This document shows positions 7,922 to 22,236 of a stretch of DNA of 64,000 bases, piece by piece (position 1 is the first letter of the stretch; every line of letters starts with the position of its first letter). The notes below the pieces were generated by a model that was given only the letters and a program-made list of their open reading frames with translations, had not been told where the DNA came from and did no database searches. The position numbers were made by a program, and so were the translations under genes. Source of the stretch: Hamadaea flava (lineage in GTDB: Bacteria; Actinomycetota; Actinomycetes; Mycobacteriales; Micromonosporaceae); assembly GCF_024172085.1 (NCBI RefSeq), contig NZ_JAMZDZ010000001.1:6510001-6574000 (forward strand), read 5' to 3'.

Positions 7922-7970
7922 GAGGCGTGAGGCTACCCCAAATGTCTGGGGTTCTGGTTACCCTCGGGGC

Positions 7971-8936
7971 ATGGGCGAGGAGCGGGCCGGCGTCGCGCTG
8001 ACCAACCTAAACCAGTCCCTGTTCGAGGGGGCCGAGGCGACCAAGCGCGACCTCGTGGACTACCTGGACGCCGTGCGCGAGCGCATTCTGCCGGTGCTGC
8101 GCGACCGGCCGCTGTCGGTGATCCGGGTGCTGCGCGGCCAGAAACCGTTCATGCAGAAGAACGTCCCCAAGTACACGCCCGACTGGGTGAAGACCGTGTC
8201 GCTGTGGGCGGAATCGTCGCATCGCGAGGTGTCCTACGCGCTCTGCAACGACCGCCAGACCCTGTTGTGGTTCGCCAATCAACGTGCGGTCGAATACCAC
8301 CCGACGCTCGTCGTGGCGGAGCGCTGGGCGTACCCGTCGCATTTGATCCTGGATCTGGACCCGCCGGAAGGCGGCGGCTTCGCGCGGGCGGTGACCGCCG
8401 CGCACCTGGTCCGCGCGGTGCTTGAGCAGGCCGGGATGGCCGGCGCGGTGAAGACCAGCGGGGCCAAGGGGGTGCACGTGTTCGTGCCCCTCGACGGCGA
8501 GACGGGCGCGGAAGACGTCGCGGCGGCCACCCGGGCGGTCGCGGCCCGCGCGGAACGGCTCGACCCCGAGGTGGCGACGACCGCGTTCATCCGCGAGGAC
8601 CGCGCGGGCAAGGTCTTCCTCGACTCGACCCGCGCGGGTGGGGCCACTGTGGTCGCGGCCTACAGTCCGCGACTTCGCCCAGGTACGCCGGTCTCGTTCC
8701 CGGTGCCCTGGGCCGACCTCGATCGGGTGACCCCGGCGGACTTCACGGTACGCACGGCGCTCCCGCTGCTGGCCGAAGCCGATCCGTGGGCCGAACTGAT
8801 GCCGCCGCCGCAGAAGCTGGACCCGGGGCTGGTCGAGGAGGGGCACACCATTCCGATACCTCGTCTGTTGGCACTACAGTACGGTCGTGAGCGGAAAAAG
8901 CGCAAGCAGCAGAGCGGCGATTTACGGACGGAATAG
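7971..8936 (+). CDS. LigD-type primase-polymerase whose 3' end is replaced by an integrated element
   Basis: A 321-residue stand-alone LigD polymerase domain. LILDLDPPEGG (DxD near residue 126) and VFLDSTRAGG (third metal aspartate near residue 219) are intact, so the catalytic core should be functional. The last 28 codons, from 8850, read into the mobile element. The chromosomal 3' end that belongs here is found at 22135-22206. The element-encoded tail (PRLLALQYGRERKKRKQQ) resembles the displaced tail (ARVQAMHEGKRRARAKRE) in spacing and charge, so the protein is probably still functional. The final 50 bp are shared, in another frame, with the start of the integrase gene. Confidence 0.9.
   Translation: MGEERAGVALTNLNQSLFEGAEATKRDLVDYLDAVRERILPVLRDRPLSVIRVLRGQKPFMQKNVPKYTPDWVKTVSLWAESSHREVSYALCNDRQTLLWFANQRAVEYHPTLVVAERWAYPSHLILDLDPPEGGGFARAVTAAHLVRAVLEQAGMAGAVKTSGAKGVHVFVPLDGETGAEDVAAATRAVAARAERLDPEVATTAFIREDRAGKVFLDSTRAGGATVVAAYSPRLRPGTPVSFPVPWADLDRVTPADFTVRTALPLLAEADPWAELMPPPQKLDPGLVEEGHTIPIPRLLALQYGRERKKRKQQSGDLRTE
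8850..8857. other. Left attachment-site core (attL) of the integrated element
   Basis: The octamer ATTCCGAT lies inside the primase codons for Ile-Pro-Ile and recurs at 22135-22142. Joining the chromosomal sequence left of this copy to that right of the second copy restores an uninterrupted reading frame ending in TGA at 22206. That is strong evidence that this is the crossover region. The integrase start is 30 bp to the right, the usual position of attP beside a serine integrase gene. Confidence 0.85.
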
Positions 8937-10383
8937 CTCGGCCAAGCAGAAGTCGATCAATGACCAGCAGGCGGAGAACCGTGCCTTCGCTGAGGCGAAC
9001 GGCTGGACGGTCGTGGCTGAGCTGGACGATCCGTCGTCAGCATCGCGGTACGCGACCAAGTCGCGCACGAACTGGGCTCGCCTGCTGGAGCTACTCCCTT
9101 CGATCGATGTCGTGGTCTTGTGGGAGCCAAGCAGGGGCGATAGAACGTTGGCGACCTGGGTGGCCTTCCTCGACGCATGCCGGGAGCACCAGGTGCGCGT
9201 CGCCGCCGTGTCGCACAGCCGGGTCTACGACCCGCGGAACCCGCGCGATTACCGCAGCCTTGCTGAGGACGGCGTGGATTCGGCGTACGAGTCGGACAAG
9301 ACGTCGGGGCGCGTCCGGCGAGGCCACGCCACAGCGGCGTCTGCTGGCCGACCGCATGCGCCGACCACCTACGGCTACGTCCGCAGATACGACCCGGCCA
9401 CCCGCGCGTTCCTGGAACAGTTGCCGCATCCGGAACACGCCGCCGTGGTGCGCGACATCATCGTCTCGGTGGGCAGGGGCGAACCGCTACACCAGGTCAC
9501 CCACCGACTCAACGCCTCCCGCACGGCGACGCCGCGAGGCGGGGCAGCGTGGTACCACTCGACTATCCGCGGGATTGCGGGCAACCAGGCGTATCGACCT
9601 CACCCCGACGACCCGGCCCGCGGCGTACGGATGCACAACGGCGATCTCCATATCGGGCAGTGGCCGCCCCTGGTCACTGAATCCGAATGGCAGGCGGCAC
9701 AGGCGGTTCTGGGCGGCAATAGTGAGACGGCCCGCCGGGCACGGAGGAACAGCGCGCCGGGCCAGATCAAGTACCTGTTGTCAGGCAACTCGGCCGTGAT
9801 GACTGCAGCGTGCGGGTCCATGCTGTCCGGGTTCTGCGCGACCGACGGCCGCGGTGCGACCTACGGCTGCAAGATGGATCGCTGCGCCAGCGCGCCCATG
9901 CCGGAGGTGGACGAGTACGTGACCCGGCTGGTCGTCGCCAGGCTGGCCCGCCAGGACGCGAGAAGGCTTTGGGTGGTCGACGACGTCGCATCCCGCGCGG
10001 CGGAGGAGGAACTTAGCCAGCTGCGCGCAGAGCTTGAAGCGGCACGGCAGTCGTTCTACCGGCCAGGCGGAATCTCTGCGGAAGCTTTGGCGGGCAAAGA
10101 GGCGGCGATGGTGCCGGCAATCGAGGACGCCCGCCGCCGGGCTCAGCCGGCCGGAGCGCCGCTCGCCCTGCTTGAGTTGATAGAGGCGGGCAAGTTCGGC
10201 ACGGAGCGCGTACAGGCCGCATGGGAGGCGTTCCCGTTGCCGGCCCGGCGCGAAGTCATCGCAGGACTGTTCGGGGCACTGACACTCGGGCCCGCCACGG
10301 TGCGGCTGACCCGCTGGACCCCGCCAGCGGAACGGCTTGCGGTCGTGGCCGACCGGATCAGCCACGAGTGGAGCCACGCGTGA
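8887..10383 (+). CDS. Large serine recombinase (integrase)
   Basis: A 498-residue site-specific recombinase. The N-terminal resolvase-fold catalytic domain has YGRNSSAKQKSINDQQ, with the nucleophile most likely Ser17 after Arg15, and the arginine-rich active-site segment WEPSRGDRTLATW near residue 78. The recombinase domain follows (about 165-265). A zinc-ribbon region follows around residues 295-335, with several cysteines (ACGSMLSGFC, YGCKMDRCA), and a coiled coil around 370-420. It should catalyse attP x attB integration by a 2-bp-staggered Ser-linked mechanism. The GTG start lies inside the hybrid primase gene. Confidence 0.93.
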   Translation: MSGKSASSRAAIYGRNSSAKQKSINDQQAENRAFAEANGWTVVAELDDPSSASRYATKSRTNWARLLELLPSIDVVVLWEPSRGDRTLATWVAFLDACREHQVRVAAVSHSRVYDPRNPRDYRSLAEDGVDSAYESDKTSGRVRRGHATAASAGRPHAPTTYGYVRRYDPATRAFLEQLPHPEHAAVVRDIIVSVGRGEPLHQVTHRLNASRTATPRGGAAWYHSTIRGIAGNQAYRPHPDDPARGVRMHNGDLHIGQWPPLVTESEWQAAQAVLGGNSETARRARRNSAPGQIKYLLSGNSAVMTAACGSMLSGFCATDGRGATYGCKMDRCASAPMPEVDEYVTRLVVARLARQDARRLWVVDDVASRAAEEELSQLRAELEAARQSFYRPGGISAEALAGKEAAMVPAIEDARRRAQPAGAPLALLELIEAGKFGTERVQAAWEAFPLPARREVIAGLFGALTLGPATVRLTRWTPPAERLAVVADRISHEWSHA

Positions 10384-10727
10384 TGACGACCTATTGGTTT
10401 CCGTCCGAGGCGGGCGACGGATATAACCCGGTCGAGGCTGATGACGCTGACGTGACTTGGATCGATGTGCATTGCAAAGCCTGTGGCGCCGCAAGCACGC
10501 GCCGCCTTGCTCGGTTCGTCCAGCTCCATGAAGGTGGCCCGGTCGGGATCAAGCCGTTCACGGTGGACGGCCAACCGAGAGGCCCCTGGTTCAAGGTGGC
10601 GGGCAACGTGATCCGCTTCAGGCTCAAGTGCTCGCGCGGCCACGATACGAACTGCACCGTGGCGGAGGCGGCGGATCTCCTTGCAGCCCGGCGGCGAGGA
10701 GCCCTGCCGACCAGAGTTGCACGCTGA
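10383..10727 (+). CDS. Hypothetical element protein with paired cysteines
   Basis: A 114-residue protein beginning MTTYWFPSEAGDGYNPVEAD. It contains CKAC in the N-terminal half and CSRGHDTNC in the C-terminal half, which together could form a zinc ribbon. The ATG overlaps the integrase stop (TGATG), so translation is coupled to the integrase. A GTG one codon upstream, at 10380, is an alternative. Its place directly after the integrase would suit a directionality factor or a DNA-binding accessory, but that is speculation. Confidence 0.65.
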   Translation: MTTYWFPSEAGDGYNPVEADDADVTWIDVHCKACGAASTRRLARFVQLHEGGPVGIKPFTVDGQPRGPWFKVAGNVIRFRLKCSRGHDTNCTVAEAADLLAARRRGALPTRVAR

Positions 10728-10849
10728 CTCCCAGTTGGGTTTAGACTCAGCAACGAGCAAGGTCGCTGTGCCGACTGTGGGCACGCATCAACCGTTCGAT
10801 AGCTGCGAATCGCGGCAGGACGGGTGGTCCGTGACGCCCAGGAGCGCCA

Positions 10850-11041
10850 GTGCCTCGCATCCAGGATCTGCCGACAGTCGAAGAGCGCCGGTCTGCGACC
10901 GAAGACGCCCGACGTAAGGCCCGTTTCAAGTTCGCTGAGCAGCGCATCCGCAAAATCGTCGACGCTGCGCCACCGCTAACCGAAGAGCAGCGCCGGCAGC
11001 TCGCCGCTCTGCTTGCGCTGCCAGCTGGCGGCGCGCGATGA
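10850..11041 (+). CDS. Small element protein with the APPL motif (copy 1)
   Basis: A 63-residue, mostly helical, highly charged protein, MPRIQDLPTVEERRSATEDA, ending in IVDAAPPLTEEQRRQLAALL. The same C-terminal pattern (V-x-x-A-P-P-L, then Arg and LL) recurs in the next gene and in the leftward gene at 17932-18078. The GTG start follows a 122-bp gap with no clear gene. Its last 4 bp overlap the next start (ATGA). Function unknown. Confidence 0.65.
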   Translation: MPRIQDLPTVEERRSATEDARRKARFKFAEQRIRKIVDAAPPLTEEQRRQLAALLALPAGGAR

Positions 11042-11208
11042 ACCGTGAGCCCGATGACCTGGCCGAGCGCCAGGCGCTAGACCGCGTCGAGGCGAAGATC
11101 GCCGCCGCCGTCAGGACGGCACCGCCGCTCCGCGATGACTTGGCCTCCCGATTGGCCACACTGATCCGCACCTCGCCCGCCATTGGGCAGACGGGGGCGG
11201 CCGCCTGA
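11038..11208 (+). CDS. Small element protein with the APPL motif (copy 2)
   Basis: A 56-residue protein, MNREPDDLAERQALDRVEAK, followed by IAAAVRTAPPLRDDLASRLA. It overlaps the upstream gene by ATGA and the downstream gene by TGATG, so all three are probably translated as one coupled unit. It resembles its neighbour in the APPL region only. Function unknown. Confidence 0.6.
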   Translation: MNREPDDLAERQALDRVEAKIAAAVRTAPPLRDDLASRLATLIRTSPAIGQTGAAA

Positions 11209-11510
11209 TGCAGCAGATACGAGAAAGCCGCCCCAGCACCCATTCTGAGGCGGCCTCAAATTCGGTCAGCTCGACGACCACCGCCAGCGTAGCAGCGGCG
11301 GCCGACATCGCTTGGTGGGAATCGCCCGCGCTTGCGTACGCGAAAGGCATGGCCGACGGTGCCCAGTTGGCGCTGGAAGACATCGCGGCCGTGCTGATCG
11401 ACACTCTCGGCGCGGGCCGGCAACCCCACGACACCGCCAAGCCGGTCGACGTCCTCATCCGCTACTGCGACCAGCTCGCGGCGCGCGAAGGCCGGGGGTG
11501 GGTCGCGTGA
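11208..11510 (+). CDS. Hypothetical element protein
   Basis: A 100-residue protein with a Ser/Thr/Ala-rich N terminus of about 30 residues, followed by a helical part containing WWESPALAYAKGMADGAQLA. It has no signal peptide or metal motif. It is coupled on both sides: TGATG with the upstream gene and GTGA with the ATPase. It may be an accessory of the ATPase, judged only by the tight overlap. Confidence 0.6.
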   Translation: MQQIRESRPSTHSEAASNSVSSTTTASVAAAADIAWWESPALAYAKGMADGAQLALEDIAAVLIDTLGAGRQPHDTAKPVDVLIRYCDQLAAREGRGWVA

Positions 11511-12820
11511 ACCCGTTCCCTCCCAACACTTCCGAGCACGAAGCTTGGGAGCGCCAGTCCGTTGCGGGCACGGCCGCCGTCGACAAGGTCCACGAGGCGT
11601 TCAATCGCTGGCTGGGCAAGGAATACGACCTCGACGCCCTCGACGCGGTGCTGTGCACGGCCGCCGCGGAACGGCTCGACGGCGACCCCGTTTGGCTGCT
11701 GGTCGTGTCCGGCTCGGGCAACGCCAAGACCGAGACCGTCGGCGCACTGGCCGGCGCGGGAGCGGCCGTCACATCCACCGTCGCGAGCGAGGGCGCACTG
11801 CTGTCCGCGACCTCCCACAAGGACAAGGCCAAAGACGCGACCGGTGGGCTGCTGCGCAAGATCGGCGACGAGGGCCTGTTGGTCATCAAGGACTTCACGT
11901 CAATCCTGTCGATGAACCGTGACCTCCGGGCCACCGTCCTCGCCGCGCTGCGCGAGGTCTACGACGGCAAGTGGGAGCGCAACGTCGGCACCGACGGCGG
12001 GCGTACGTTGACGTGGGCCGGGCGGATCGTCCTCGTCGGTGCGGTCACCACGGCGTACGACCAAGCTCACGGTGTCATCGCCTCGATGGGCGACCGCTTC
12101 GCCTTGGTGCGTATGGACTCCACGGCTGGGCGGGCCTCCGCCGGGCGGCAGGCTCTGGCGAACGTCGGCCACGAGGTCGCGATGCGCAAAGAGCTCGCGG
12201 ACGCCGTCTCCGAAGTGATGGCCGGGCTGTACGCCAGCGCTGCGGTACTCGGCGACGAGGACATGGACGTACTGCTCACTGCGGCGGATCTGGTGACGCT
12301 GTCGCGTACCGCCGTCGAGCGTGACTTCCGGGGCGACCCGATCGAGGCGCACGCCCCGGAGATGCCGACGCGGTTCGCGAAGATGCTCGGCCAGATCCTG
12401 CGCGGCGGCCTGGCGCTCGGGATGCGGCGGTGTTGCGCCCGCCGGATTGCGCTGCGGGTCGCACGGGACTCGGTGCCGCCGCTGCGGGCCGCGATCCTCG
12501 CCGACGTCGCGAAGCACCCTGTCACCCCGACCCGCGAAGTCGTCAAGCGCGTCCAGAGGCCACGCACGACCGTCGACCGCACCCTGCAGGAACTTCACCT
12601 GATCGGCCTGCTGCAGGTTGAGGACGGCGGCTACGACACGGCGTGGCACTACAGGCTCGCCGAGGGGGTCGAGGAGTCGGCCGTACGCAGGCTCCTCCTA
12701 AATGATCATGCTTACCAGGAATGTCACAAAGGGAGCGTCACTCTTCCCTACCCGAACACCCGGTGTAGTGACAAATCTGGTGAACAAGATCAGCTTCGGG
12801 AAGCGCGGGCACCGTGGTGA
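11507..12820 (+). CDS. P-loop ATPase with C-terminal winged-helix region
   Basis: A 437-residue protein. A Walker-A-like loop VVSGSGNAKTET lies near residues 65-76, with Ala in place of the usual Gly before Lys-Thr. A Walker-B-like LLVIKDFTSIL follows near residue 126. The C-terminal third has a winged-helix look (HPVTPTREVVKRVQRPRTTV, then DRTLQELHLIGLL), as in ArsR/MarR-like DNA-binding modules. In mobile elements this layout suits a replication helicase/initiator or a DNA-packaging ATPase; the sequence does not decide between them. The GTG start overlaps the upstream stop. Confidence 0.75.
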   Translation: MNPFPPNTSEHEAWERQSVAGTAAVDKVHEAFNRWLGKEYDLDALDAVLCTAAAERLDGDPVWLLVVSGSGNAKTETVGALAGAGAAVTSTVASEGALLSATSHKDKAKDATGGLLRKIGDEGLLVIKDFTSILSMNRDLRATVLAALREVYDGKWERNVGTDGGRTLTWAGRIVLVGAVTTAYDQAHGVIASMGDRFALVRMDSTAGRASAGRQALANVGHEVAMRKELADAVSEVMAGLYASAAVLGDEDMDVLLTAADLVTLSRTAVERDFRGDPIEAHAPEMPTRFAKMLGQILRGGLALGMRRCCARRIALRVARDSVPPLRAAILADVAKHPVTPTREVVKRVQRPRTTVDRTLQELHLIGLLQVEDGGYDTAWHYRLAEGVEESAVRRLLLNDHAYQECHKGSVTLPYPNTRCSDKSGEQDQLREARAPW

Positions 12821-13278
12821 CCCAAGATCAAAAGCAGCCGGTCGGCTACGCCTCCCTAGAGATTGAAGATCCAAATCTAGCGAGCGCAGCGAGCGGCGGG
12901 TCTGGGCGGAGCCCAGGGTCTGTGACCGAGGACCTCCGCGCCCGGCAGCTTGAGCATCGCCGACCGGAAGCCCGACGCGTAACGCCACTCGACGTGCCGC
13001 GTCACGCCCGCGTCACGCCGCGAGGGCATGGGGGGCGGTCACCGGACGCCGATCCTGACGCAGTCGCCACCCCGCCGCTACTGGCGGGCATCTCCCCCCG
13101 AGATCAGACATTCGGCGACCCCGCCGATCTTGCGGAGTTGCTGCGACTGCGCGCGCTCGAGCGCAGCGCAGATTTCCAGCGCCGCCGCGCCCAGGTACAG
13201 GCCGACCGGGCTGCGTTCGCCGTCGCCCGGGCCGCCGGCCTACGGCGCCGGCATGCCTCACGTGAAGGAAGGAAGTGA
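12814..13278 (+). CDS. Hypothetical element protein, Arg-rich
   Basis: A 154-residue protein beginning with tandem GTG codons at 12814 and 12817 that overlap the ATPase 3' end. The first 95 residues are low-complexity and polar. The C-terminal part (DPADLAELLRLRALERSADF, then RRRAQVQADRAAFAVARAAG) is a probable amphipathic helix. It ends one base before the tape-measure-like gene and lies in the position where tail-assembly chaperones often sit, but no such similarity is evident. Confidence 0.5.
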   Translation: MVTQDQKQPVGYASLEIEDPNLASAASGGSGRSPGSVTEDLRARQLEHRRPEARRVTPLDVPRHARVTPRGHGGRSPDADPDAVATPPLLAGISPRDQTFGDPADLAELLRLRALERSADFQRRRAQVQADRAAFAVARAAGLRRRHASREGRK

Positions 13279-13279
13279 C

Positions 13280-15157
13280 ATGGCCACCTCGACTGAAGAG
13301 TTGCGTTTCCGGGCGACCGGGCAGGACGCCGGCGCGGGTCGGATGTTCGACAAACTCGGCGACAAGGCCGACGACGCCAAGGACGAGGTCAAGGGCTTCG
13401 ACCGGCAGCTCGGCAAGCTGGACGAGCAGCTCGACCTGACGAAACTGCACCTTGCGGTGCTGCTGGACGAGTTCGACCGGACCGGCGACAAGACTCTGTT
13501 CAAGGACATCCGCAAAGACCGGTCGACGATCTCGTTCCTGGAGAAGCTGCGCAAGGAGATGCGCGGCGTCGGCGACGACGCTGAGGAAGTCGCGCCGGTC
13601 ATCCGCCGCAACCTGCTCGGCAGCCTGCGCGACGCACTGTCCAGCCTGCCGTCGGAGCTGAAAGGCTCGCTGATCATTGGCGCGGCCGGCACGGGTGCCG
13701 TGATGGCACCGTTGCTGGGCGCGGCGATCGGCGGTGCAGTGCTCGGCGGTGTCGGGACGGGCGGCATCATCGGCGGGATCGCGCTCGCAGCGCAGGACGA
13801 CCGGGTGGCTGCGGCCGGTAAGGAACTCGGCCAGCATCTACTCGGCCAGCTCCAGTCCAACGGTCAGTCGTTCGTCGCCCCGCTGCTCGTCGCTATCGGC
13901 GAGGTAGACGATGCCACCACTGGACTCCTCGCCGATGTCGGCGACGAATTCCGCGGCCTGTCCAAGCTCGTCGTACCGCTCTCCCAAGGTCTGGGCGGGC
14001 TCATCCGCAACCTCGGCCCCGGTCTGTCGGACGCCCTGGAAGCGTCAGAGCCCATCATTCGCGCCGTGTCTGAAGAGCTGCCCGAACTCGGCGATTCGAT
14101 CTCCTACATGCTTCAGGCGATCTCCAGCCAGTCCGACGGCGCCACGTTGGGCTGGATCTCCCTGCTGAATATCGTCGAGGAAGGCGTCGAGGGCTTCGGC
14201 AACATCGTCGGGGCGTTGAGTGCGACCTACGAGTGGCTGGTCCGCACAACGCATGCGGTGGCCGAAGGCGAGGCCGGCTTCCTGGGGATCGCCGCAGCGA
14301 TCGCGCCGTTCGGTCTGGCGACCGGCTGGGTGGACGACCAGACGCAGTCCCTGATCGAAGATCTGGACAAAGCCAAAGCGTCCAACGACACACTCGTGGG
14401 CGGCTTCGACGACCTGGCAAATTCGACCGACCGGGCGCGTCGGGCGATGGTCGACTTCTCGCAATCGGTCGAGGACCAATTCGATCCGACGGCGAACCTG
14501 ATCCACCGGCTGCAAGACGTCAAGGACCGCCAGCGTGAGTACAGCGAGGCGGTCAGGGAGCACGGTAGGAACAGCCGCGAGGCGAAAGAGGCGAACCTCG
14601 CGCTTGCGCAGGCGATCCTGGCCGCCAGCTCCGCCAGCGCCGCGGCCGCGGGCACCTTCGACGGCAAGCTCACCCCGGCGCTGCGCGCCACGCTCAAGGC
14701 CGGCGGGTTGACCGACGCGCAGCTGGCCGACATTGAGAAGCAGGCTCTCGCGGCGCACCGCGCGCTCGACAAGTACGCCGACGTCTACAAGGCGCGGGCG
14801 ATCCTCGAGTTCTCCGAGTACCGCGCCGGTGAGCGCAACCCCTCCGGACGGGCGTCCGGTGGCCCTGTAGAGGCAGGACGCACGTACCTGGTCGGGGAGA
14901 ACGGGCCTGAGTTGGTGACGCCGACCGCGAGCGGCTACGTCCACACCGCCCAGCAGACGCAGGCGATGCTCAGCAGCGGCACCGGCGATGTGGGCGCCGG
15001 CAGCGGATCGGTTCAAGTTGCGGTCACCGTCTCGCTCGACCCATCCCTGATCGGCCACAGCCGCGACCTGGCCGCCTCACTTGTCCAGATGCTGCGGTAC
15101 GAGACACGCACGACGGCCGGCGGCGACGTCCAGGTCATGTTCGGGCAGGCGCGATGA
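13280..15157 (+). CDS. Phage tail tape-measure-like protein
   Basis: A 625-residue protein. Its N terminus (ELRFRATGQDAGAGRMFDKL) and charged helical segments are followed by a hydrophobic Gly/Ala-rich stretch at about residues 130-180, typical of tape-measure proteins. Near residues 524-550 it carries the common tape-measure signature RASGGPVEAGRTYLVGENGP followed by ELVTP. It is short for this family, in which length sets tail length, and would specify a short tail if functional. It is preceded by a good ribosome site (GAAGGAAG). No other tail gene is recognised nearby, which is odd. Confidence 0.85.
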   Translation: MATSTEELRFRATGQDAGAGRMFDKLGDKADDAKDEVKGFDRQLGKLDEQLDLTKLHLAVLLDEFDRTGDKTLFKDIRKDRSTISFLEKLRKEMRGVGDDAEEVAPVIRRNLLGSLRDALSSLPSELKGSLIIGAAGTGAVMAPLLGAAIGGAVLGGVGTGGIIGGIALAAQDDRVAAAGKELGQHLLGQLQSNGQSFVAPLLVAIGEVDDATTGLLADVGDEFRGLSKLVVPLSQGLGGLIRNLGPGLSDALEASEPIIRAVSEELPELGDSISYMLQAISSQSDGATLGWISLLNIVEEGVEGFGNIVGALSATYEWLVRTTHAVAEGEAGFLGIAAAIAPFGLATGWVDDQTQSLIEDLDKAKASNDTLVGGFDDLANSTDRARRAMVDFSQSVEDQFDPTANLIHRLQDVKDRQREYSEAVREHGRNSREAKEANLALAQAILAASSASAAAAGTFDGKLTPALRATLKAGGLTDAQLADIEKQALAAHRALDKYADVYKARAILEFSEYRAGERNPSGRASGGPVEAGRTYLVGENGPELVTPTASGYVHTAQQTQAMLSSGTGDVGAGSGSVQVAVTVSLDPSLIGHSRDLAASLVQMLRYETRTTAGGDVQVMFGQAR

Positions 15158-15456
15158 CCGAGACCGACGGCGTGGCCGAGCTTGTGCAGAGGATCCAGAG
15201 CCGCGCCCAAGACATCGTCGCCGACTGCCTCAAGCGGCTCCCGGCGGACGACGTGATGCGACGGCTGCGCTGGTGCGACGCGAACCATTCGGCGGTGACG
15301 TTGCGCCCAGACGGCGAGGATTACGAGATCCACTGGGGCGGCGAGCGCATCGCCATCGTGCCAAAGCGAATCCTGACCGACCCAGACGTAACCACCTTCG
15401 CGATCACCGGCGAGCTGCCCACCGTTCCCGACGACCTCTCGGAGCTGACCGAATGA
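15154..15456 (+). CDS. Hypothetical element protein
   Basis: A 100-residue acidic protein, MTETDGVAELVQRIQSRAQD. The central part (YEIHWGGERIAIVPKRIL) looks like two beta strands. It overlaps the tape-measure stop by ATGA and the following membrane protein by ATGA, so all three are translationally coupled. No family was recognised. Confidence 0.65.
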   Translation: MTETDGVAELVQRIQSRAQDIVADCLKRLPADDVMRRLRWCDANHSAVTLRPDGEDYEIHWGGERIAIVPKRILTDPDVTTFAITGELPTVPDDLSELTE

Positions 15457-15671
15457 CTGCCCTCGACCGCGTCGACGTCGACGCCATCCGCACCCGGGCC
15501 GCGCAGATCAACTTCCGCCGGCTGCTGTTGACCCTCATCGTCGGACTGTTCTGGCTGATCGGCTTCGCCGCCCGACGCGCCTTCGTCGCAGCCGCCTACC
15601 TCGCAGCCGCCGTCCAAGTCGGCTGGCGCGAAGCAGGACCACCCGACACAGACCAGCGGGAAATCCGCTGA
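15453..15671 (+). CDS. Small membrane protein
   Basis: A 72-residue protein with one or two hydrophobic helices (LLLTLIVGLFWLIGFA and FVAAAYLAAAVQVGW) separated by Ala-Arg-Arg. The size and the two possible helices would suit a holin, but there is no endolysin gene beside it, so this is only a possibility. Its stop is followed by a large hairpin. Confidence 0.65.
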   Translation: MTALDRVDVDAIRTRAAQINFRRLLLTLIVGLFWLIGFAARRAFVAAAYLAAAVQVGWREAGPPDTDQREIR

Positions 15672-15676
15672 AAGCC

Positions 15677-15731
15677 GCCCGGCCGGCGGTGCTCGCTGGA
15701 CTCCCGAGCACGAACCTCCCGCCGGCCGGGC
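15677..15731 (+). terminator. Nested hairpin between membrane protein and prohead protease genes
   Basis: A perfect 13-bp outer stem (GCCCGGCCGGCGG at 15677-15689 with its complement at 15719-15731) encloses a second stem at 15690-15695/15705-15710. There is no T-tract. It may terminate, attenuate or protect the mRNA ahead of the protease gene, which has its own strong ribosome site. Confidence 0.55.
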
Positions 15732-15767
15732 ACACCTCCAAATGCCAGAGCTACGAAAGGAGCACCC

Positions 15768-17222
15768 ATGAGAGCCACGTCAAGCACCGTCCGCCGGGTC
15801 ACCGGCCAGTGCACGCGGTCGTACCAGTTCGAAACCGCCGCCACCGGTGACGGCCGCACCCTTGAGGGTTACGCGGCCGTGTTCAACTCGCCCACGCTGA
15901 TCCGCGACGCGCAGGGTGACTTCTACGAGACGATCCTGCCCGGCGCGTTCACGCGGTCGCTGGCGCAGCGAACCCCTGTCCTGCAATGGGATCACGGCAA
16001 AGACCCGCGGATCGGCCAGGTGCCGATCGGGAAGATCGAGGAGATCCGCGAGGACGCTCGAGGCCTGTTCGTCCGCGCCCGCCTGTTCGCGCACCCCGAC
16101 GTCGACCGCGTCCGCGAAGCCATCGCCGAGGGCGCCGTGACGGGCATGAGCTTCCGGTTCACCGTCCCCGACGGCGGCGACGACTGGACCCACTCCGACG
16201 GGTTCGAGCGCCGGGCGGTTCGCGACGCGACTGCCTACGAACTAGGCCCCGTCGTGTTCCCCGCATACGACACGACGTCGGTGTCCGTACGAGGGGCGCT
16301 GTCCACGATGCCGGAGGCGCGCCGGATGGACCGCAAGATCGAGGCGTACGTCGCCGTCTGGGGTGAGGTACGCAGCGGCGAACCGGACGGCGGCGCACTG
16401 TGGACGATCAAGGACGCCGACACGTTCCGAGACTGGCTGAAGCGCGGACCGCACCGTGTGCCGATCCTGGTCAACCACGGCCGGGACTACGCCGACGACC
16501 GGGCCTCGAGCGTGCTGTCGAAACCGTGCGGCTGGTGGCACCAGTTCACGGTCGACGAAACGGGGCTGCGGGCGACCGGCTACCTCGACGACACACCGCT
16601 CGGGGTGCAGGTTGCCGAGCGGATCCGCTCGGGCGAGCTGAGCAGCTGCTCGTATCGAGGCGGGATCCGGGACTGCGCGCCGGCGGGAGTACGCGACGGC
16701 GAGGAGCGCGTGCGGCTGCGCGCCGTCGACGTCTCCGAGGCGGGGCCGACGTCGAACCCCGCCGACCCTCGCGCGGTCATCCTCACGCTGGGCGGCCGCC
16801 CGGTTCGCGGCCGCGCCGCAACGGTTCGCGCCGCGTTCACCGAACCCGAACTGCGGGCAGTCCTCCGCGCCCTCGGCACGACCCTGGACAAGGAGCGCCG
16901 CCATGTCCAGGCCGACCGTGACCGGCGGCGTTTCTCGGCCGAGGACGGCGCAGCACGGGCCGAGCGAATCGCCCTCGTCCTGCGGCGCAAGCGACACGAC
17001 GCCAACCTGCAGTTCCAGTACGCCCGCGGTGCCCTGGCCCAGTCCGGCGACTTCCGCAGGGCGCTGGACCTCCAGCGGGAAGCGGACGCCGTCGAGCGCG
17101 ACCTCATGGAACAGCTCTACTACGACCGGGAAGCGTTCGCGATGCTGGCCGAACGGCTCGGCATCCCGCCGAAGGCGAACATCATCGGCGAGGCCCGGAA
17201 GCAGTGGTCGACGCGCCGCTGA
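15768..17222 (+). CDS. Prohead-protease-like protein with two tandem protease domains
   Basis: A 484-residue protein. Domain 1 (about 20-175) matches HK97-type prohead proteases: RTLEGYAAVFNSPT, a histidine in QWDHGKDP (His76), a serine in VTGMSFRF (Ser128) and ELGPVVFPAYDTTSVSV. Domain 2 (about 188-345) repeats the same plan: KIEAYVAVWGEV, His237 in LVNHGRDY, Ser295 in SSCSYRGG and VSEAGPTSNPADPRAVIL. A helical, Arg-rich C-terminal region (365-484) follows and could be a scaffold. Normal prohead proteases carry one such domain of about 180-220 residues. No major capsid gene follows, contrary to the usual phage order. Ribosome site AAAGGAG. Confidence 0.82.
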   Translation: MRATSSTVRRVTGQCTRSYQFETAATGDGRTLEGYAAVFNSPTLIRDAQGDFYETILPGAFTRSLAQRTPVLQWDHGKDPRIGQVPIGKIEEIREDARGLFVRARLFAHPDVDRVREAIAEGAVTGMSFRFTVPDGGDDWTHSDGFERRAVRDATAYELGPVVFPAYDTTSVSVRGALSTMPEARRMDRKIEAYVAVWGEVRSGEPDGGALWTIKDADTFRDWLKRGPHRVPILVNHGRDYADDRASSVLSKPCGWWHQFTVDETGLRATGYLDDTPLGVQVAERIRSGELSSCSYRGGIRDCAPAGVRDGEERVRLRAVDVSEAGPTSNPADPRAVILTLGGRPVRGRAATVRAAFTEPELRAVLRALGTTLDKERRHVQADRDRRRFSAEDGAARAERIALVLRRKRHDANLQFQYARGALAQSGDFRRALDLQREADAVERDLMEQLYYDREAFAMLAERLGIPPKANIIGEARKQWSTRR

Positions 17223-17246
17223 GCCGGCCGGTACGCGTAACGCAAC

Positions 17247-17279
17247 AGGGGTCCGCCGCAGTACGCGATGGACCCCTTT
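17247..17279 (+). terminator. Probable Rho-independent terminator of the rightward module
   Basis: AGGGGTCC at 17247-17254 pairs with GGACCCCT at 17270-17277 across a 15-nt loop and is followed by TTT. It lies 25 bp after the protease stop, between the convergent halves of the element. Confidence 0.7.
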
Positions 17280-17385
17280 CGTCGAGTTGATCAAGTCCCA
17301 GACCCGTACACATTGCGAGAAGGGGGTCGGCGGGGTGGAGAGCCACGGCCAAGATTACGTCCCAGGGGTACCCCCGCCCTCCCGG

Positions 17386-17847
17386 CTACAGGTAGCCAGC
17401 GCGTACGCAGACGGTCTGCATCCGGATGGATTGAGTGGTCACGTCGAGGGTCCGTGCTACCTCGTCGGACGCGCCTCTCGCTGCCTCGGCCATCTCGAAC
17501 GAGTCCCACAGCAGGTTCGCCGCGACGGTCACCGCGGAGTCGGATGACTGGCTGGCGGCGAAGACGATCTGCCGCAGCGTCTCGCGGTCACTGAGCTTGT
17601 CGTCGGTCTGGGCTTTGACGTTCCATTCGCACGCGTGGCGGGCGTTCAAGTCCCGGGTATCGGGCATGCCCCCCGTACTGGTCGCAGCAGCGGACGGCGT
17701 CCCTGTGGGCTGCGGTTCGGCAGTCGGCGAACCCGTGCGGCTGGTAGCGAAGATGACGCCTGTTGTCGCACCTGCAGCGATGACGGCGACGACCAGGAGC
17801 AGCAGCCACATCCGAGGGCGCCGCTTCGCTGCGGGGGTCTCGATCAT
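17386..17847 (-). CDS. Membrane-anchored extracytoplasmic protein
   Basis: A 153-residue protein with a short basic N terminus, one transmembrane helix (MWLLLLVVAVIAAGATTGVI), a Thr/Ser/Pro/Ala-rich linker, and a small outer domain with two cysteines (RHACEWN and QTVCVRAG) that could form a disulfide. It is the last gene of the leftward module. Such single-pass proteins are common in actinobacterial elements; a surface or superinfection-exclusion role is possible but unproven. Confidence 0.7.
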   Translation of the reverse strand: MIETPAAKRRPRMWLLLLVVAVIAAGATTGVIFATSRTGSPTAEPQPTGTPSAAATSTGGMPDTRDLNARHACEWNVKAQTDDKLSDRETLRQIVFAASQSSDSAVTVAANLLWDSFEMAEAARGASDEVARTLDVTTQSIRMQTVCVRAGYL

Positions 17848-17931
17848 CCGAGGACGGTACGTCCGGCGTCGCCGCCGCAGAGTCGGCTACCTGACCACGA
17901 AGGCGTCATCAGTGGGGTTACCGGGGTTCCG

Positions 17932-18078
17932 TCACGATCGCTGACGGAACCCCGCATCCGCCTTCTCGACGGCGGGCCGCAGCAGGGCCCGCAGGAGTTC
18001 ACGACGTTCGGGGCTGAGTGGCGGGGCCTGGTCGACCATCCGCTTGACGTATTCGCGCAGGGTCTCGTCGCTGGTCAT
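17932..18078 (-). CDS. 48-residue protein with the APPL motif (copy 3)
   Basis: A very short gene, MTSDETLREYVKRMVDQAPP followed by LSPERRELLRALLRP. It shares the V-x-x-A-P-P-L, Arg and LL pattern with the two small rightward genes at 10850 and 11038. Start ATG at 18078, stop TGA at 17932. The shared motif supports its being a real gene despite its size. Function unknown. Confidence 0.6.
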   Translation of the reverse strand: MTSDETLREYVKRMVDQAPPLSPERRELLRALLRPAVEKADAGFRQRS

Positions 18079-18158
18079 CGCCTGATCAACGACCTATCCG
18101 CCTGGTGACCCCGTCCATCCGCCGGGTGATCCCGGCCTGCGGTCACCTACTCGGAGGA

Positions 18159-18692
18159 TCAGTTGAAGCTGAGCGTGATCGCGCTGTTCAGCTCGGCTCG
18201 CGGGTACTGGACCTTGCCTCGATGCGCCACCTCGACGGCGTAGAACTGGCTGCCCTCCGGCACGGCGGCGATGAGGAACACGAACTCGCATCGGGTGGAT
18301 TCGGCCTTCGGCTCGCCCTTGCCGAGTTGTCCCACCGCCACGGTCTTGCCGTCGGCGTCGGTCACGACGACCTGGGTGCCCTCGCGAATGTCGTCGTATC
18401 CGCCGCGGCCCCAGCAGTTCCACGGGTCGCGGGTCCATCCGAACTCCGACGGGCTCAGCACCATCGTGCCGGCCAGCATGAAGGCCGTAGGCGCCGCGGG
18501 TGATGCCGACGCCTGCGGCGTTGCGGATCCAGCGAACTTAACGATGGCGAAGGCAATGCCGCCGGAGATCGCGAACAGCACGACCAGCGTGCCGACGATC
18601 AACGGCCACAGCGGCCGTGCGCGGCGGGTCGGCGTAGGCGGCGGGAAGACGGGCTCGGACGTCACTCGTGGCACGGTACGGAAGCGACGCAT
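18159..18692 (-). CDS. Single-pass membrane protein with extracytoplasmic domain
   Basis: A 177-residue protein. A Pro/Arg-rich cytoplasmic tail of about 28 residues is followed by a membrane helix (LWPLIVGTLVVLFAISGGIA), an Ala/Pro/Ser linker and an outer beta-rich domain with two cysteines (DPWNCWGRGG, STRCEFVF). The domain has the look of a small all-beta fold, but the family was not recognised. It may be co-transcribed with the other element membrane protein at 17386-17847. Confidence 0.72.
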   Translation of the reverse strand: MRRFRTVPRVTSEPVFPPPTPTRRARPLWPLIVGTLVVLFAISGGIAFAIVKFAGSATPQASASPAAPTAFMLAGTMVLSPSEFGWTRDPWNCWGRGGYDDIREGTQVVVTDADGKTVAVGQLGKGEPKAESTRCEFVFLIAAVPEGSQFYAVEVAHRGKVQYPRAELNSAITLSFN

Positions 18693-18747
18693 TGATCACC
18701 TTCGCCCGCTCGGCCGAACCCAGAAGGACGTTCGTTACTCGATCGGA

Positions 18748-18775
18748 CCAAGTGTGGCCCCGGGGCCACACTTGG
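18748..18775. repeat. 28-bp perfect palindrome (no loop)
   Basis: Half-site CCAAGTGTGGCCCC at 18748-18761 is followed directly by its exact complement at 18762-18775. It lies in the 148-bp gap upstream of the gene that starts at 18692. It could be a dimeric-protein site or a cruciform. Confidence 0.85.
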
Positions 18776-18813
18776 AGCGGATATCTATGGATGCCTCAGT
18801 GGCCCGCGTCGCG

Positions 18814-18837
18814 GACTTTCGCCCCGGGGCGAAAGTC
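18814..18837. repeat. 24-bp perfect palindrome (no loop)
   Basis: Half-site GACTTTCGCCCC is followed directly by its complement. The second of four consecutive perfect palindromes. It shares the CCCC/GGGG centre with the first and the fourth but has different arms. Confidence 0.85.
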
Positions 18838-18840
18838 GAA

Positions 18841-19128
18841 TCACTCTCCGTAGGCTGGTGAATTCCCGCAGATCTGCGGGAATTTTCCTCCGTCGTTGGC
18901 CTGCGCGTCGGACCTAAATGCTTCGCGCCCCGGGGCGCGAAGCGATTCATCATCTTCCTTCGATCTTCTTGGTGCGGTATCGCCGTGCGCCTGACGCTGC
19001 ACTGCGGCCTGTGCGTACATCGGTTCGCGTAACGGCGTCCGGGCGTAACGAAGCCCTGCCCAAATTTCTTCGGGGAGAGAAATGCCTGACTGGGCGGCGG
19101 GGTCAGCGTTTGCCCTGGTCACGTCCAT
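18841..19128 (-). CDS. Hypothetical element protein with palindrome-encoded tail
   Basis: A 95-residue protein whose first half (SGISLPEEIWAGLRYARTPL, then REPMYAQAAVQRQAH) looks like a normal small helical protein. The second half is polar, and its DNA consists largely of two 24-bp perfect palindromes. The start is an ATG behind a G-rich site (GGGGGGTGG). The same pattern, ordinary N terminus plus hairpin-coded tail, is seen in the genes at 19655-20284 and 21166-21492. Moderate certainty that it is expressed. Confidence 0.5.
   Translation of the reverse strand: MDVTRANADPAAQSGISLPEEIWAGLRYARTPLREPMYAQAAVQRQAHGDTAPRRSKEDDESLRAPGREAFRSDAQANDGGKFPQICGNSPAYGE
18861..18884. repeat. 24-bp perfect palindrome (no loop)
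   Basis: Half-site AATTCCCGCAGA and its exact complement, inside the last codons of the gene at 18841-19128. The centre is AGATCT, unlike the CCCCGGGG centres of its three neighbours. Confidence 0.85.
18920..18943. repeat. 24-bp perfect palindrome (no loop)
   Basis: Half-site GCTTCGCGCCCC and its exact complement, inside the gene at 18841-19128. The fourth of the series spanning 18748-18943. Confidence 0.85.
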
Positions 19129-19654
19129 GATCCACCCCCCGGGTACCCCCGATGCGCAGACGTCGGCGCGAGAGCGGAGACGCTTGCAGGCACATAGATG
19201 CGTTACGTCACGGGTTACGTCGGCACCTGAGTCAACCGCGGTTGACTCGCTGGAGAGACTGAGGGATTCCCCCCACCCCTTAGCTCACCAGGGAACAACC
19301 CGCACGCTTCGATCCCTCCAGCGGTACCAGCCCGCCCACCCGTAGGTGTGCAGGCTCCGCCAATGTGTCGACCGGGGTGATCAGACCAGGGTCGGGCCGC
19401 CCACGTCGGCCTGCTGTACGAGGGGCATGGCTGTTCGTCCACATGCCTGCGGACACGGAGACCATGCAAGGAACTCCGTAGAGCGTCGGTCGCTCAGGGC
19501 AGGGCTCTACCGATCGGGTAGAGCCCCACTCTCAACGGCCGCAAAGGGTGTCTGTCAGACCGACGCCCTTATGGGGTCGGTACTGCCAACGTCATGGCTT
19601 CTTCCCGCCGCCGGGAAGAAGGGGTCCTCGTCAAATGAGGACCCCCGCCAACAG
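19129..19654. other. 526-bp stretch without a convincing gene, rich in hairpins
   Basis: No well-supported gene. A 61-codon leftward frame at 19280-19465 (containing LITPVDTLAEPAHLRVGGLV) is possible but weak. The stretch holds a 20-bp perfect palindrome at 19229-19248 (half GAGTCAACCG), a 10-bp stem at 19502-19511/19517-19526, a 9-bp stem with one G-T pair at 19544-19552/19562-19570, and a 10-bp stem at 19598-19607/19612-19621. It also holds a 9-bp stem at 19621-19629/19637-19645, just after the stop of the leftward operon, which may be its terminator. A regulatory RNA or origin is possible. Confidence 0.6.
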
Positions 19655-20284
19655 CTAGGGCAGCGACTTTGCGGGTGCACGCAAAGTGGACTCGCCATGA
19701 AAGCCCTGGTCGCCCAGCTTGCCGGGGCCGGTAACCTGAGCGACCTGCGGTGACGTCAGTAGTGCTGACGTCATGTCCGTTTTCCCGACGCCGGGAAGGT
19801 TGTCGTAGTCGGGCCCGGCGAACAGCGGGAGTTGGGTACGCGTTGGATGCGTACCCCGGGCGATGCCTTTTCCGGGACGCGCCGGAAAAGGCTGGTCCCG
19901 GCTGCCCTCATTAGTAGTGACCCCAGGATCACTTTCGCGACGCCCCGAAAGTGATCTGGCCGTGCCGTCAGCACTGCCGGCGGCATCCTCAGAGCGCGGT
20001 GCCGGGAGGGGATGGGTGTCATCACTAATGACACCCTCAACCCCCGCTGTAACAACGGGGGTCGCCAGCGCAAGCCGCCCTTGCGCGACGAGCTGGCCGG
20101 CGCGCTGACGAGACATGCCGGGTAGCGCCCGGGCAATCTCCTCGTGCGTCATGTCGTACTGATCGGCCAGCAGTGCGGCCAGGCGGGCGCGGGTGAGGCG
20201 CGCGGCGGCAAGCTCGGCTTGCACGGTGCCAATGCGCTCTTGCGCGGCACGGAGCAGCGTCACCAGGATCTCGGCGTCCGTCAT
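19655..20284 (-). CDS. HTH-containing element protein with hairpin-coded C-terminal tail
   Basis: A 209-residue protein. Residues 1-70 (MTDAEILVTLLRAAQERIGT, then DMTHEEIARALPGMSRQRAG) look like a coiled coil followed by a helix-turn-helix. Residues 75-209 are polar and low in complexity, and their DNA carries at least seven strong hairpins (19666-20062). The ATG overlaps the upstream stop (ATGA), and it is the last gene of the six-gene leftward operon. The N-terminal part probably binds DNA and may control the element. The tail may be a by-product of the hairpins. Confidence 0.6.
   Translation of the reverse strand: MTDAEILVTLLRAAQERIGTVQAELAAARLTRARLAALLADQYDMTHEEIARALPGMSRQRAGQLVAQGRLALATPVVTAGVEGVISDDTHPLPAPRSEDAAGSADGTARSLSGRRESDPGVTTNEGSRDQPFPARPGKGIARGTHPTRTQLPLFAGPDYDNLPGVGKTDMTSALLTSPQVAQVTGPGKLGDQGFHGESTLRAPAKSLP
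19666..20062. repeat. Array of hairpins within the 3' part of the HTH gene
   Basis: Stems seen directly: 19666-19673/19680-19687 (8 bp), 19751-19759/19765-19773 (9 bp, TGACGTCAG), 19782-19787/19792-19797 (6 bp) and 19834-19841/19849-19856 (8 bp). Further right: 19865-19875/19882-19892 (11 bp, GCCTTTTCCGG), 19927-19937/19946-19956 (11 bp, GATCACTTTCG), 20014-20022/20028-20036 (9 bp) and 20040-20046/20056-20062 (7 bp). All arms differ in sequence, while loops are short (4-9 nt). They lie nearly end to end. Confidence 0.8.
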
Positions 20285-20541
20285 CGGTCCGCCTCCGCGC
20301 CCTGGTAGAGGTTGCCGTCGTTGTCGAGCGGAGCGATCCCCAAGGCGCGCAGCAGATCCGCCGCAGCCTGGTCTGCTGAGTCCTCGTCCATGTGGTAGTC
20401 CCAGCCCGCCTCGCGCGCCAGCCATATTGCGACGTGCGCGACGAGGTTGCTGACCTGGAAGGTGATGGGCTTCGCCGGGTGCTGGCCGAGCATCATGTTG
20501 GGGGCAGTACGCGGGCCGCGTACGCGGTGGTTGCGCGTCAT
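20281..20541 (-). CDS. Hypothetical element protein
   Basis: An 86-residue protein. The central part (ITFQVSNLVAHVAIWLAREA) is a helix with mixed polarity, and the C-terminal DSADQAAADLLRALGIAPLD looks like a short helical domain. It is coupled by ATGA overlaps to both neighbours. No family was recognised. It contains a small GTACGCG stem-loop at 20507-20523 near its start. Confidence 0.65.
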   Translation of the reverse strand: MTRNHRVRGPRTAPNMMLGQHPAKPITFQVSNLVAHVAIWLAREAGWDYHMDEDSADQAAADLLRALGIAPLDNDGNLYQGAEADR

Positions 20542-20825
20542 CGGTCACCCCGCATGTGTGCGACGGCGACCCGCCGTGGTCGGCGCTCACGCTCGTTCGG
20601 CCGGGCCGGTGTGCGCTTGTCGACGACCGCCTCGACGCGCGGCAGCATGTCCATCCGGGCGGTCACGAGGACGGCCTTCGGGTCGCCGACGAGCATTGCC
20701 AGCGCGTCGTCAGCGCCGAACACGATCGAGGTCACGACGTAGCGGCGCTCGGCGCAGTAGTCGAGGCACAGGTCAATCCAGCGCTGGCGGTCGGCCGCCA
20801 TCGGCACGAAGACGATCGCGTTCAT
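20538..20825 (-). CDS. Small protein resembling a resolvase-fold core
   Basis: A 95-residue protein, MNAIVFVPMAADRQRWIDLC, then RRYVVTSIVFGADDALAMLV and AVLVTARMDMLPRVEAVVD. The strand-helix order, with a long helix after strand 1 and a DxLPR-like segment, recalls the N-terminal domain of serine recombinases. The catalytic Arg-x-Ser is absent, so it would be inactive as a recombinase. Such truncated homologues occur in actinobacterial elements. It is coupled by ATGA on both sides. Confidence 0.6.
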   Translation of the reverse strand: MNAIVFVPMAADRQRWIDLCLDYCAERRYVVTSIVFGADDALAMLVGDPKAVLVTARMDMLPRVEAVVDKRTPARPNERERRPRRVAVAHMRGDR

Positions 20826-21169
20826 GCCGCACCGCCAGCCAGCGCCACCAGGTCGCTGAGCCCCGTCGAGAGCATCGAGGTCTGGCGCACGGTCAGCAGC
20901 GCCGATCTGCCGTCCGCTTCCGCCGGCTCCTCGTAGGTCAGCAGCTCGACGGACGGCGGGAGCGTCCTGCCGTCGTGGATCTGGGCTACCAGGCGGGCCC
21001 TGACGATGTACAGCTCGACGTCGGCCGGGTCCTGACGAGGTGCGCCCGGGTCGGTGACGCGTAGCTGGATCTCGTCGCCTTCGACGGTGTTGGCGCGGAC
21101 GTCGGCCGACCGGTGCTCGGCGCGCTCGGCGCAGCCTTGCCGGTCACACCACGCGGGGTGCTGACTCAT
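20822..21169 (-). CDS. Small element protein with HPAWCDRxxC motif (DUF6907-like)
   Basis: A 115-residue protein starting MSQHPAWCDRQGCAERAEHR. This N-terminal Cys/His motif followed by a strand-rich middle (EIQLRVTDPGAPRQDPADVE) and a C-terminal helix resembles the DUF6907-type proteins common in actinobacterial mobile elements; the family assignment is from memory of the pattern. ATGA overlaps couple it to both neighbours. Function unknown. Confidence 0.65.
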   Translation of the reverse strand: MSQHPAWCDRQGCAERAEHRSADVRANTVEGDEIQLRVTDPGAPRQDPADVELYIVRARLVAQIHDGRTLPPSVELLTYEEPAEADGRSALLTVRQTSMLSTGLSDLVALAGGAA

Positions 21170-21492
21170 GCGGCACCGCCGATTGCGAGCGCCGTGTCGA
21201 CGTGAGACGCCCAACCGTGGTCGTCTCGACCATGGTTGGTATCTGCGTTGTCGCCCGAACCACGCAGATCGGTGCCGTCATGGGGCAGAGCCCCACGCAA
21301 GATCGAACCGTTGGGGTCGGGGGTACTCACGGGGCGAGTACCCGGCGTACCGCCGCAGCGGCCCTCAGGGCAGACCCGCGCCAGCGCCTTGCCGCAGACG
21401 ACGCACCGGGGACGACTCGTGCCAGCCGCCATGAGGTAGCCGCCAGCGAACGCCGCGGCGCAGAGCAGGGCCAGAAGCCACCACGGGATCAT
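21166..21492 (-). CDS. Membrane/zinc-motif element protein with hairpin-coded tail
   Basis: A 108-residue protein. One membrane helix (WWLLALLCAAAFAGGYLMAA) is followed by a cysteine motif CVVCGKALARVCPEGRC that could bind zinc, then a polar tail. The DNA of the tail forms four stems: 21211-21223/21227-21239 (13 bp with one G-T), 21241-21248/21262-21269, 21281-21286/21290-21295 and 21321-21328/21336-21343. Because the tail ends exactly in an ATGA overlap with the next gene, the hairpin-bearing frame is evidently translated. Confidence 0.65.
   Translation of the reverse strand: MIPWWLLALLCAAAFAGGYLMAAGTSRPRCVVCGKALARVCPEGRCGGTPGTRPVSTPDPNGSILRGALPHDGTDLRGSGDNADTNHGRDDHGWASHVDTALAIGGAA
21211..21343. 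repeat. Cluster of four hairpins within a coding tail
   Basis: Four consecutive stems of 13, 8, 6 and 8 bp with loops of 3, 13, 3 and 7 nt occupy most of 133 bp. The best is CCAACCGTGGTCG with its near-complement 3 nt later. Arm sequences are unrelated to each other and to the arrays further left. Confidence 0.8.
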
Positions 21493-22046
21493 CGGGCACC
21501 TCCCGGGCGCCGCCGGGTCGCGTGGCGGTACAGCTGGTCGGCCGCGTCGCGGAACAGGTCCCAGCTACCGCTGTCCAGGAAGCGGCGGACCTGATCCGCC
21601 AGCTGCTCCCCGCGCACGTCGAGACGTAGCCCGGGCTCGCGATCGGGGAAGATCTCCATCTCCGACCGGCAAACCCCACACGTGACCGCAGCCTTCTCGG
21701 TGCTCGTCGTCTCGCCGGCCGTGGCACCGCAGGACCACGGGTGGCCGTACGGGAAGTGGATGGGCGGCGTGGCCGCAGGCGGCGGTTCGGGCGCCCTCAG
21801 GGACGGTAGTCCCGGCTGGGTGTAGTCGTACCCGTCGCCGCAACGCTTGCCGCTCTGGGCCTGCCCGTCCCTGTGTGCCGTGAACCCGGCCTGCCGCAGA
21901 GTCGCGCTGACCGGTTCGACGTGGGCATCGCAGACGTTGACGGACACGTCAAGCGTGCCGTGCGCCAGGCCGTCGCGGGGCGAGTACGCCTCGATTCGGA
22001 CGGTGGCGGGCTGCCCGCATGTGGGCAGGGTCGGTAGGGTGCTCAC
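21489..22046 (-). CDS. Hypothetical element protein with cysteine pairs
   Basis: A 185-residue protein and the first gene of the leftward operon, with a GTG start. Cysteine motifs include PTCGQPATV, VNVCDAHVEPV, SCGATAG and VTCGVCRSEM, consistent with one or two zinc-binding sites. A Pro-rich linker sits in the middle, and the C terminus (DVRGEQLADQVRRFLDSGSW) is helical. It overlaps the next gene by ATGA. It begins 89 bp from the right attachment core, so its promoter lies within the element end. Confidence 0.65.
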   Translation of the reverse strand: MSTLPTLPTCGQPATVRIEAYSPRDGLAHGTLDVSVNVCDAHVEPVSATLRQAGFTAHRDGQAQSGKRCGDGYDYTQPGLPSLRAPEPPPAATPPIHFPYGHPWSCGATAGETTSTEKAAVTCGVCRSEMEIFPDREPGLRLDVRGEQLADQVRRFLDSGSWDLFRDAADQLYRHATRRRPGGAR

Positions 22047-22134
22047 TAGCCGGACCTCGTTTCCGGTCAGGCCCCGGATTCACGGTGTTGGCGCACCGCC
22101 GGGGCCGCTTTATTGGGGTATCAGTCGGCTTGCT

Positions 22135-22142
22135 ATTCCGAT
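22135..22142. other. Right attachment-site core (attR) of the integrated element
   Basis: Second copy of ATTCCGAT. Sequence to its right continues the primase reading frame (ATC GCC CGA GTG CAG) to a stop at 22206, and sequence to its left is element DNA. Only these 8 bp are identical between the two ends, which is normal for serine integrase crossovers. Confidence 0.85.
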
Positions 22143-22206
22143 CGCCCGAGTGCAGGCGATGCACGAGGGAAAGCGGCGCGCCCGGGCCAAACGCGAGGCA
22201 TCCTGA
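22135..22206 (+). pseudogene. Displaced 3' end of the LigD-type primase gene
   Basis: Twenty-three codons encoding IPIARVQAMHEGKRRARAKR followed by EAS and TGA. Attached to codon 293 of the gene at 7971 they would give a 316-residue protein with the usual C terminus of stand-alone LigD polymerases (GHTIPIARVQAM). It has no start of its own and is separated from its gene by 13.3 kb of inserted DNA. Confidence 0.88.
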
Positions 22207-22220
22207 GCCTTTTCCGAGGT

Positions 22221-22236
22221 TGTAGGACTACAGTCC
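22221..22236. promoter_or_regulatory. Probable TetR operator overlapping the promoter
   Basis: Two overlapping dyads, TGTAG-GA-CTACA (22221-22232) and GGACT-AC-AGTCC (22225-22236), end 4 bp before the TetR start. The position over the -10/start region suits autorepression. Confidence 0.55.

Follow-up and report, generated by a model that had tools for sequence, protein, structure and literature searches.

Entry into tRNA genes is a habit of the tyrosine integrases, and it is an enzyme of this class that brings prophage e14 into icd, where the prophage gives the host gene an alternative 3' end. The large serine recombinase (LSR) integrases of the phage/ICE type, such as phiC31 and Bxb1, form another class. 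In the case of SCC, the att repeats are described as taking in the final codons of rlmH (PMC10061031). A survey that covered 6,207 LSRs describes target sites within coding genes, among which DNA-competence genes are enriched, and its main text contains no occurrence of LigD (PMC10083194). Thus, a protein-gene target is normal for these enzymes, and the loci of relatives of the integrase described below also indicate that serine integrases commonly enter coding genes; the view of an earlier, sequence-only reading of this DNA, that the kind of target is unusual, does not hold. In the literature we found no work joining a serine integrase, attB and LigD, and among the titles and abstract openings on restored gene ends with serine integrases the present case was not recognised.

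Here, we analysed a 64-kb stretch of Hamadaea flava DNA (the window), and it is confirmed that a mobile element of 13.3 kb inserted cleanly near the end of a DNA-repair polymerase gene. The site consists of the following parts:

7971-8849, forward strand: body of the host primase-polymerase (LigD-Pol/Prim-PolC-like) gene, 293 codons left of the core (PF21686, family genomes)
8850-8857, forward strand: attL core ATTCCGAT, exact copy, the 8-bp overlap of two alignment blocks with relative G002
8858-8936, forward strand: new 3' end that the element gives to the polymerase gene (PRLLALQYGRERKKRKQQSGDLRTE, stop TAG), from the 321-aa ORF and 44 native tails
22135-22142, forward strand: attR core ATTCCGAT, exact copy, from the G002 alignment
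22143-22206, forward strand: native 3' end of the polymerase gene, now displaced (ARVQAMHEGKRRARAKREAS, stop), from the joint translation and relatives

The core pair had been proposed from the letters alone; both copies are exact, and they are the sole two within the window. For such an 8-mer 0.68 copies are expected in the window, and two or more copies arose in 14 of 100 shuffles. By itself the pair is weak evidence, and the case is carried by the frame and by the relatives. When 7971-8857 is joined to 22143-22206, removing 13,285 bp, the translation runs through 316 residues with no internal stop, and right of the second core the frame continues over the displaced 21-codon gene end to its stop, both as the sequence-only reading had described. 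In the attP rebuilt from the element ends (CTTGCT-ATTCCGAT-ACCTCG), the core is the centre of a dyad with 11 outer pairs; among 20,000 shuffles of the arms, 210 reached this value. Dyad symmetry of the arms is present, as a modest feature, and its centring on the core suggests CC as the central dinucleotide.

The empty site was found in relatives. The protein of G002 is 97% identical to the H. flava polymerase, and window blocks 7296-8857 and 22135-23468 align to positions 1-1571 and 1564-2897 of the G002 locus (L214); these blocks lie 13,285 bp apart in the window and abut in G002 with an 8-bp overlap. The joined flank gives a single match to G002 (2,792 columns, 91.9%) and to G003 (2,834 columns, 84.7%). 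The uninterrupted joint, which the sequence-only reading had suggested looking for, was detected in 267 of 354 family genomes by a DNA pattern allowing at most 2 mismatches (in the own genome it fits at attR only), and no integrase-free relative carried the 321-residue primase. The polymerase gene itself is held by 284 of the 354 (E<=1e-60, own genome counted). Comparison of the two lists, made by eye, left one genome (G450) with the joint pattern yet absent from the gene list, and 18 gene-positive genomes without the pattern, including G664, whose polymerase gene is split at another place. Since the alignment of each of the 18 extends to residue 314 or 315, every other gene-bearing family genome (283/283) is uninterrupted at this site; low-scoring genomes show gene splits, contig ends or 5' losses, all at other places. 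The core position reads ATCCCCAT in G002 and ATCCCGAT in G003, so the pre-insertion core of H. flava is not fixed to the base. An empty site in relatives and an identical short core at both ends, the marks of an LSR element, are both present.

The target had been called a LigD-type primase, and PF21686 matches it at E 4e-79 across residues 24-273; against TIGR02778 it scores 209.9 bits (cut-off 214.7). Its best solved-structure match is mycobacterial Prim-PolC (5op0, E 1.4e-38; also 6sa0). By these matches the target is identified as a stand-alone LigD-Pol/Prim-PolC-like enzyme. Four further matches to the polymerase occur in the own genome at E<=0.001, so loss of the interrupted copy may be tolerable. 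The displaced native C terminus is highly conserved: after the core, AMHEGKRR is read at every one of the relative loci (58/58, with 44 different tails; some genomes were fetched twice), and the motif varied in a few genomes of a wider pattern search, e.g., G041, G560 and G582. The conserved C-terminal extension of Prim-PolC forms helix 8 and Loop 3; it is reported to contact DNA and to be needed for filling of 3-nt gaps, which is abolished when the extension is truncated (PMC5663958, PMC7442782). A tail can therefore matter in this superfamily; the alignment to Prim-PolC stops at residue 286, before the extension, and homology of the tail is not covered by it.

Two features had been missed by the sequence-only reading: the element brings a substitute C terminus similar to the one it displaced, and it has a start motif in common with the next host gene. 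The element continues the polymerase frame as PRLLALQYGRERKKRKQQSGDLRTE, giving a 321-aa ORF that overlaps the integrase gene by 50 nt in a different frame. A single-sequence AlphaFold model of the re-ended protein had a mean pLDDT of 36.2, too low for use. We scored the first 17 residues of the element tail on a profile of the 44 distinct native tails, where it reached 8.8 bits (native tail 58.2). This score was matched by 3 of 469,368 six-frame control windows (1/125,282 from the window and 2/344,086 from the loci), by none of 6,475 windows around related integrase starts, by 0.00016 (0.016%) of residue shuffles and by 1 of 20,000 dinucleotide shuffles. When the start motif was kept constant, the frequencies were 114, 8, 7 and 2 per 100,000 for lengths 12, 15, 17 and 18, respectively. 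Plain BLOSUM62 scoring was weaker (97/469,368 windows; 0.001, or 0.1%, of residue shuffles). As the control windows overlap and the test was made post hoc, after the resemblance had been noticed and on one element, we take the chance odds to be roughly 1/1,000 to 1/10,000. Only 5 of 17 residues are identical to the native tail. The features in common are spaced (Arg at 2, Ala at 5, Gly at 9, Arg at 12 and a Lys-rich end); the conserved H-E is missing from the element tail, and the second residue of K-R-R is replaced by E.

We favour, with a probability of roughly 55%, the reading that the element was inserted by its own LSR and that the polymerase was re-capped with a look-alike tail rather than cut off. 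Recombination between the element attP and an attB over the last conserved motif of the polymerase gene connects the element at 8857 and the displaced gene end at 22142, and integration shifts the last 21 sense codons (partial codon included) to the far side of the element. The polymerase gene is fused to a 26-codon element-encoded end keeping the spaced features of the native tail. The resemblance would have been selected, the re-ended enzyme would be made and active, its new basic tail keeping it useful, and the element should still be able to excise; re-capping should reduce the cost of carrying it.

The same fusion could arise from an ordinary disruptive insertion, in which the integrase picked a conserved coding motif and the polymerase lost its tail, the 26 codons being accidental readthrough and the likeness the product of chance and an Arg/Lys-rich reading. 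The existence of polymerase paralogues in the genome speaks for this possibility, as do the post hoc nature of the likeness test and its weaker outcome under BLOSUM, while the rarity of the profile score against composition-keeping controls speaks against it. Its further support comes from the habits of related integrases, which truncate their targets. The integrase gene is placed as follows:

8887-10383, forward strand: large serine recombinase (integrase), 498 aa (PF00239, PF07508, phrog_95)

It had been described as a serine integrase, and the Resolvase N-terminal and Recombinase domains that define LSRs are indeed found, both above cut-off (PF00239, E 2.1e-19; PF07508, E 7.2e-11), together with phrog_95 integrase (E 4.7e-55). 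Relatives occur in 44 of 397 order genomes at 1e-20 and in 2 of 396 phylum genomes at 1e-50 (own genome counted in both); the nearest across the 397 order genomes are about 40% identical. A second serine integrase, 35% identical, lies in the same genome (L002, G000:C1:5833025-5834284). Scans of IMG/VR and GTDB contigs for integrase relatives confirmed none. The nearest integrase (L033, G444) cuts a membrane-protein gene near residue 36, and the gene end is not restored. At L165 (G1058) the membrane-protein gene diverges where the L033 element interrupts its orthologue, which is possibly a second insertion at one shared attB. ORFs running into related integrases include a competence gene (L039, with L036, L038 and L052 alike by eye) and T2SSE ATPases (L048, L049). 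Sigma-factor ORFs precede the integrases at L042 and L044 (confirmed) and, by eye, likewise at L043, L045 and L050. All five of these sigma factors (L042-L045, L050) end at the same region-4 motif, of the GTVKDR/GTVKNR type, which is likely a repeated attB. These five targets end at once, which counts against re-capping. On the whole, we regard a merely disruptive insertion as possible, though doubtful.

The polymerase is in none of 29 integrase loci (flanks of about 1.5 kb, some shorter), and scans of limited reach (IMG/VR, GTDB contigs and the DNA pattern) gave no further element at this site. The DNA-pattern search of genome contigs for other interrupted polymerases returned 44 loci, none encoding the polymerase. 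Only half of the relative loci (36 of 72) contain the fixed part of this pattern, and the pattern skips a following A, P, S or T codon; the present case would therefore have been missed, which makes this a weak negative.

The likeness between the two tails lies at the level of the protein. An anchored gapped DNA alignment of the two tails reached a score attained by 14,335 of 39,768 random windows, and base matches by codon position are 7/17, 10/17 and 5/18. With phmmer, the own-genome match runs to residue 314 (671 bits; body alone 651). The DNA arms being no better than chance and codon positions 1 and 2 being favoured, we argue for a protein-level cause, as opposed to att-site binding or recent capture. 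Binding of similar DNA by the integrase in the attB and attP half-sites could draw on the right arms, which have 22 of 52 bases in common (4,713 of 127,896 windows reach that), but the left, non-coding arm is at chance level (12/52), identity at codon position 3 is low, and R12, K13, K14 and K16, which give much of the signal, lie at least 35 bases away from the core, farther out than a minimal att site usually extends. We give this explanation hardly any credence. Descent without selection, i.e., capture of a now much diverged polymerase gene end by imprecise excision in an ancestor of the element, would account for the protein-level likeness too, and with a 9-nt gap MAFFT shows one more patch of matching bases; the anchored alignment, however, is not above random windows. 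Recent DNA capture of the gene end is unsupported by that alignment.

The start motif also bears on capture, as it lies just past the tail in the host DNA and past the core in the element:

8873-8889, forward strand: ACTACAGTnCGGTnnTG motif ending at the integrase start codon (whole-genome pattern search)
22227-22243, forward strand: second copy of this motif, at the start of the host TetR gene; relatives G002 and G003 have it as well
22241-22837, forward strand: host TetR-family regulator (PF00440, E 2.8e-15); in G002 and G003 its gene immediately follows that of the polymerase

Even with this point in its favour, we consider a captured tail very unlikely. The 17-nt ACTACAGTnCGGTnnTG has only two sites in the 8.86-Mb genome at up to one mismatch, those at the integrase gene and tetR, both without mismatch. 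Both relatives with that tetR (G002 and G003; tblastn 95% and 92%) keep the motif, and the fetched loci (1.2 Mb) contain no other copy when up to 2 mismatches are allowed and TG is kept. The pattern was built from its own two sites, post hoc, and its rarity is therefore only suggestive. A candidate operator reads GGACT-AC-AGTCC at tetR and GCACT-AC-AGTAC at the integrase gene. TACAGT in the motif might represent a -10 box as in leaderless genes; the motif does not recur, which speaks against a common promoter, and a promoter scan of 8700-9000 gave nothing. An extension of the re-capping reading, that the element end imitates the host locus twice, by the look-alike C terminus and by the tetR start motif, so that the host regulator and the polymerase transcript would govern the integrase gene, seems unlikely to us.

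The remainder of the element carries these features:

11507-12820, forward strand: 437-aa conserved protein with a weak winged-helix-like C-terminal match below the Pfam cut-off (IMG/VR and genome relatives)
13277-15157, forward strand: tape-measure-like protein, 626 aa (phrog_34159, phrog_1538)
15768-17222, forward strand: protein with two HK97-type prohead protease (S78) stretches (PF04586, TIGR01543)
20281-22046, reverse strand: run of small leftward ORFs without assigned function (ORF list, domain scans)

The 437-aa protein matches 3 IMG/VR loci at 53-71% and occurs in 2 of 150 other genomes; its relatives lie at L125, L126, L127 and L141, with 67% in genome G069. The 626-aa protein matches phrog_34159 (E 6.8e-38, no function annotated) and the tape measure phrog_1538 (E 9e-14). 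The protease matches PF04586 (E 2.7e-33) and TIGR01543, each in two stretches; the domain is thus doubled in one protein, and no capsid gene was found beside it. It precedes the tape measure in IMG/VR loci L129 and L134, an order reversed in the present element, while L120-L122 have the protease alone, plus a short tape-measure match in L121. Among the 19 distinct element ORFs scanned with PHROGs there was no major capsid, portal or terminase, and head-protein matches are confined to the protease domain. These 19 ORFs thus do not show the gene set of a complete prophage. By its predicted genes the element would be either a decayed prophage or a satellite, and its size and gene set would fit a phage satellite, a small integrated element that relies on the capsid of a helper phage. 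Its G+C content is close to that of the flanks, and composition is uninformative.

If selection has shaped the tail as a replacement, elements with a serine integrase can soften a landing in a coding gene through a protein-level substitute, with no need for the long DNA repeat used by known gene-end restorers. The site offers, in addition, a clean attB/attP pair within a bacterial DNA-repair gene that is conserved. Like the known LSR integrases, the present one has Resolvase and Recombinase domains, a short common core, a protein-gene target and a clean empty site, but in all 146 of 146 matching phage-collection records its identity is below 60%. It resembles SCC, which Ccr LSRs insert at rlmH, in that an LSR inserts near a gene end. 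SCC, however, restores that end by repeated DNA, whereas here 8 bp are in common and the further likeness is at the protein level; DNA beyond the core is no better than random windows, so end restoration by att repeats of the SCC kind does not apply. As at e14, a phage-related element would supply a host gene with an alternative 3' end, although e14 uses another integrase class and has long DNA homology at its site.
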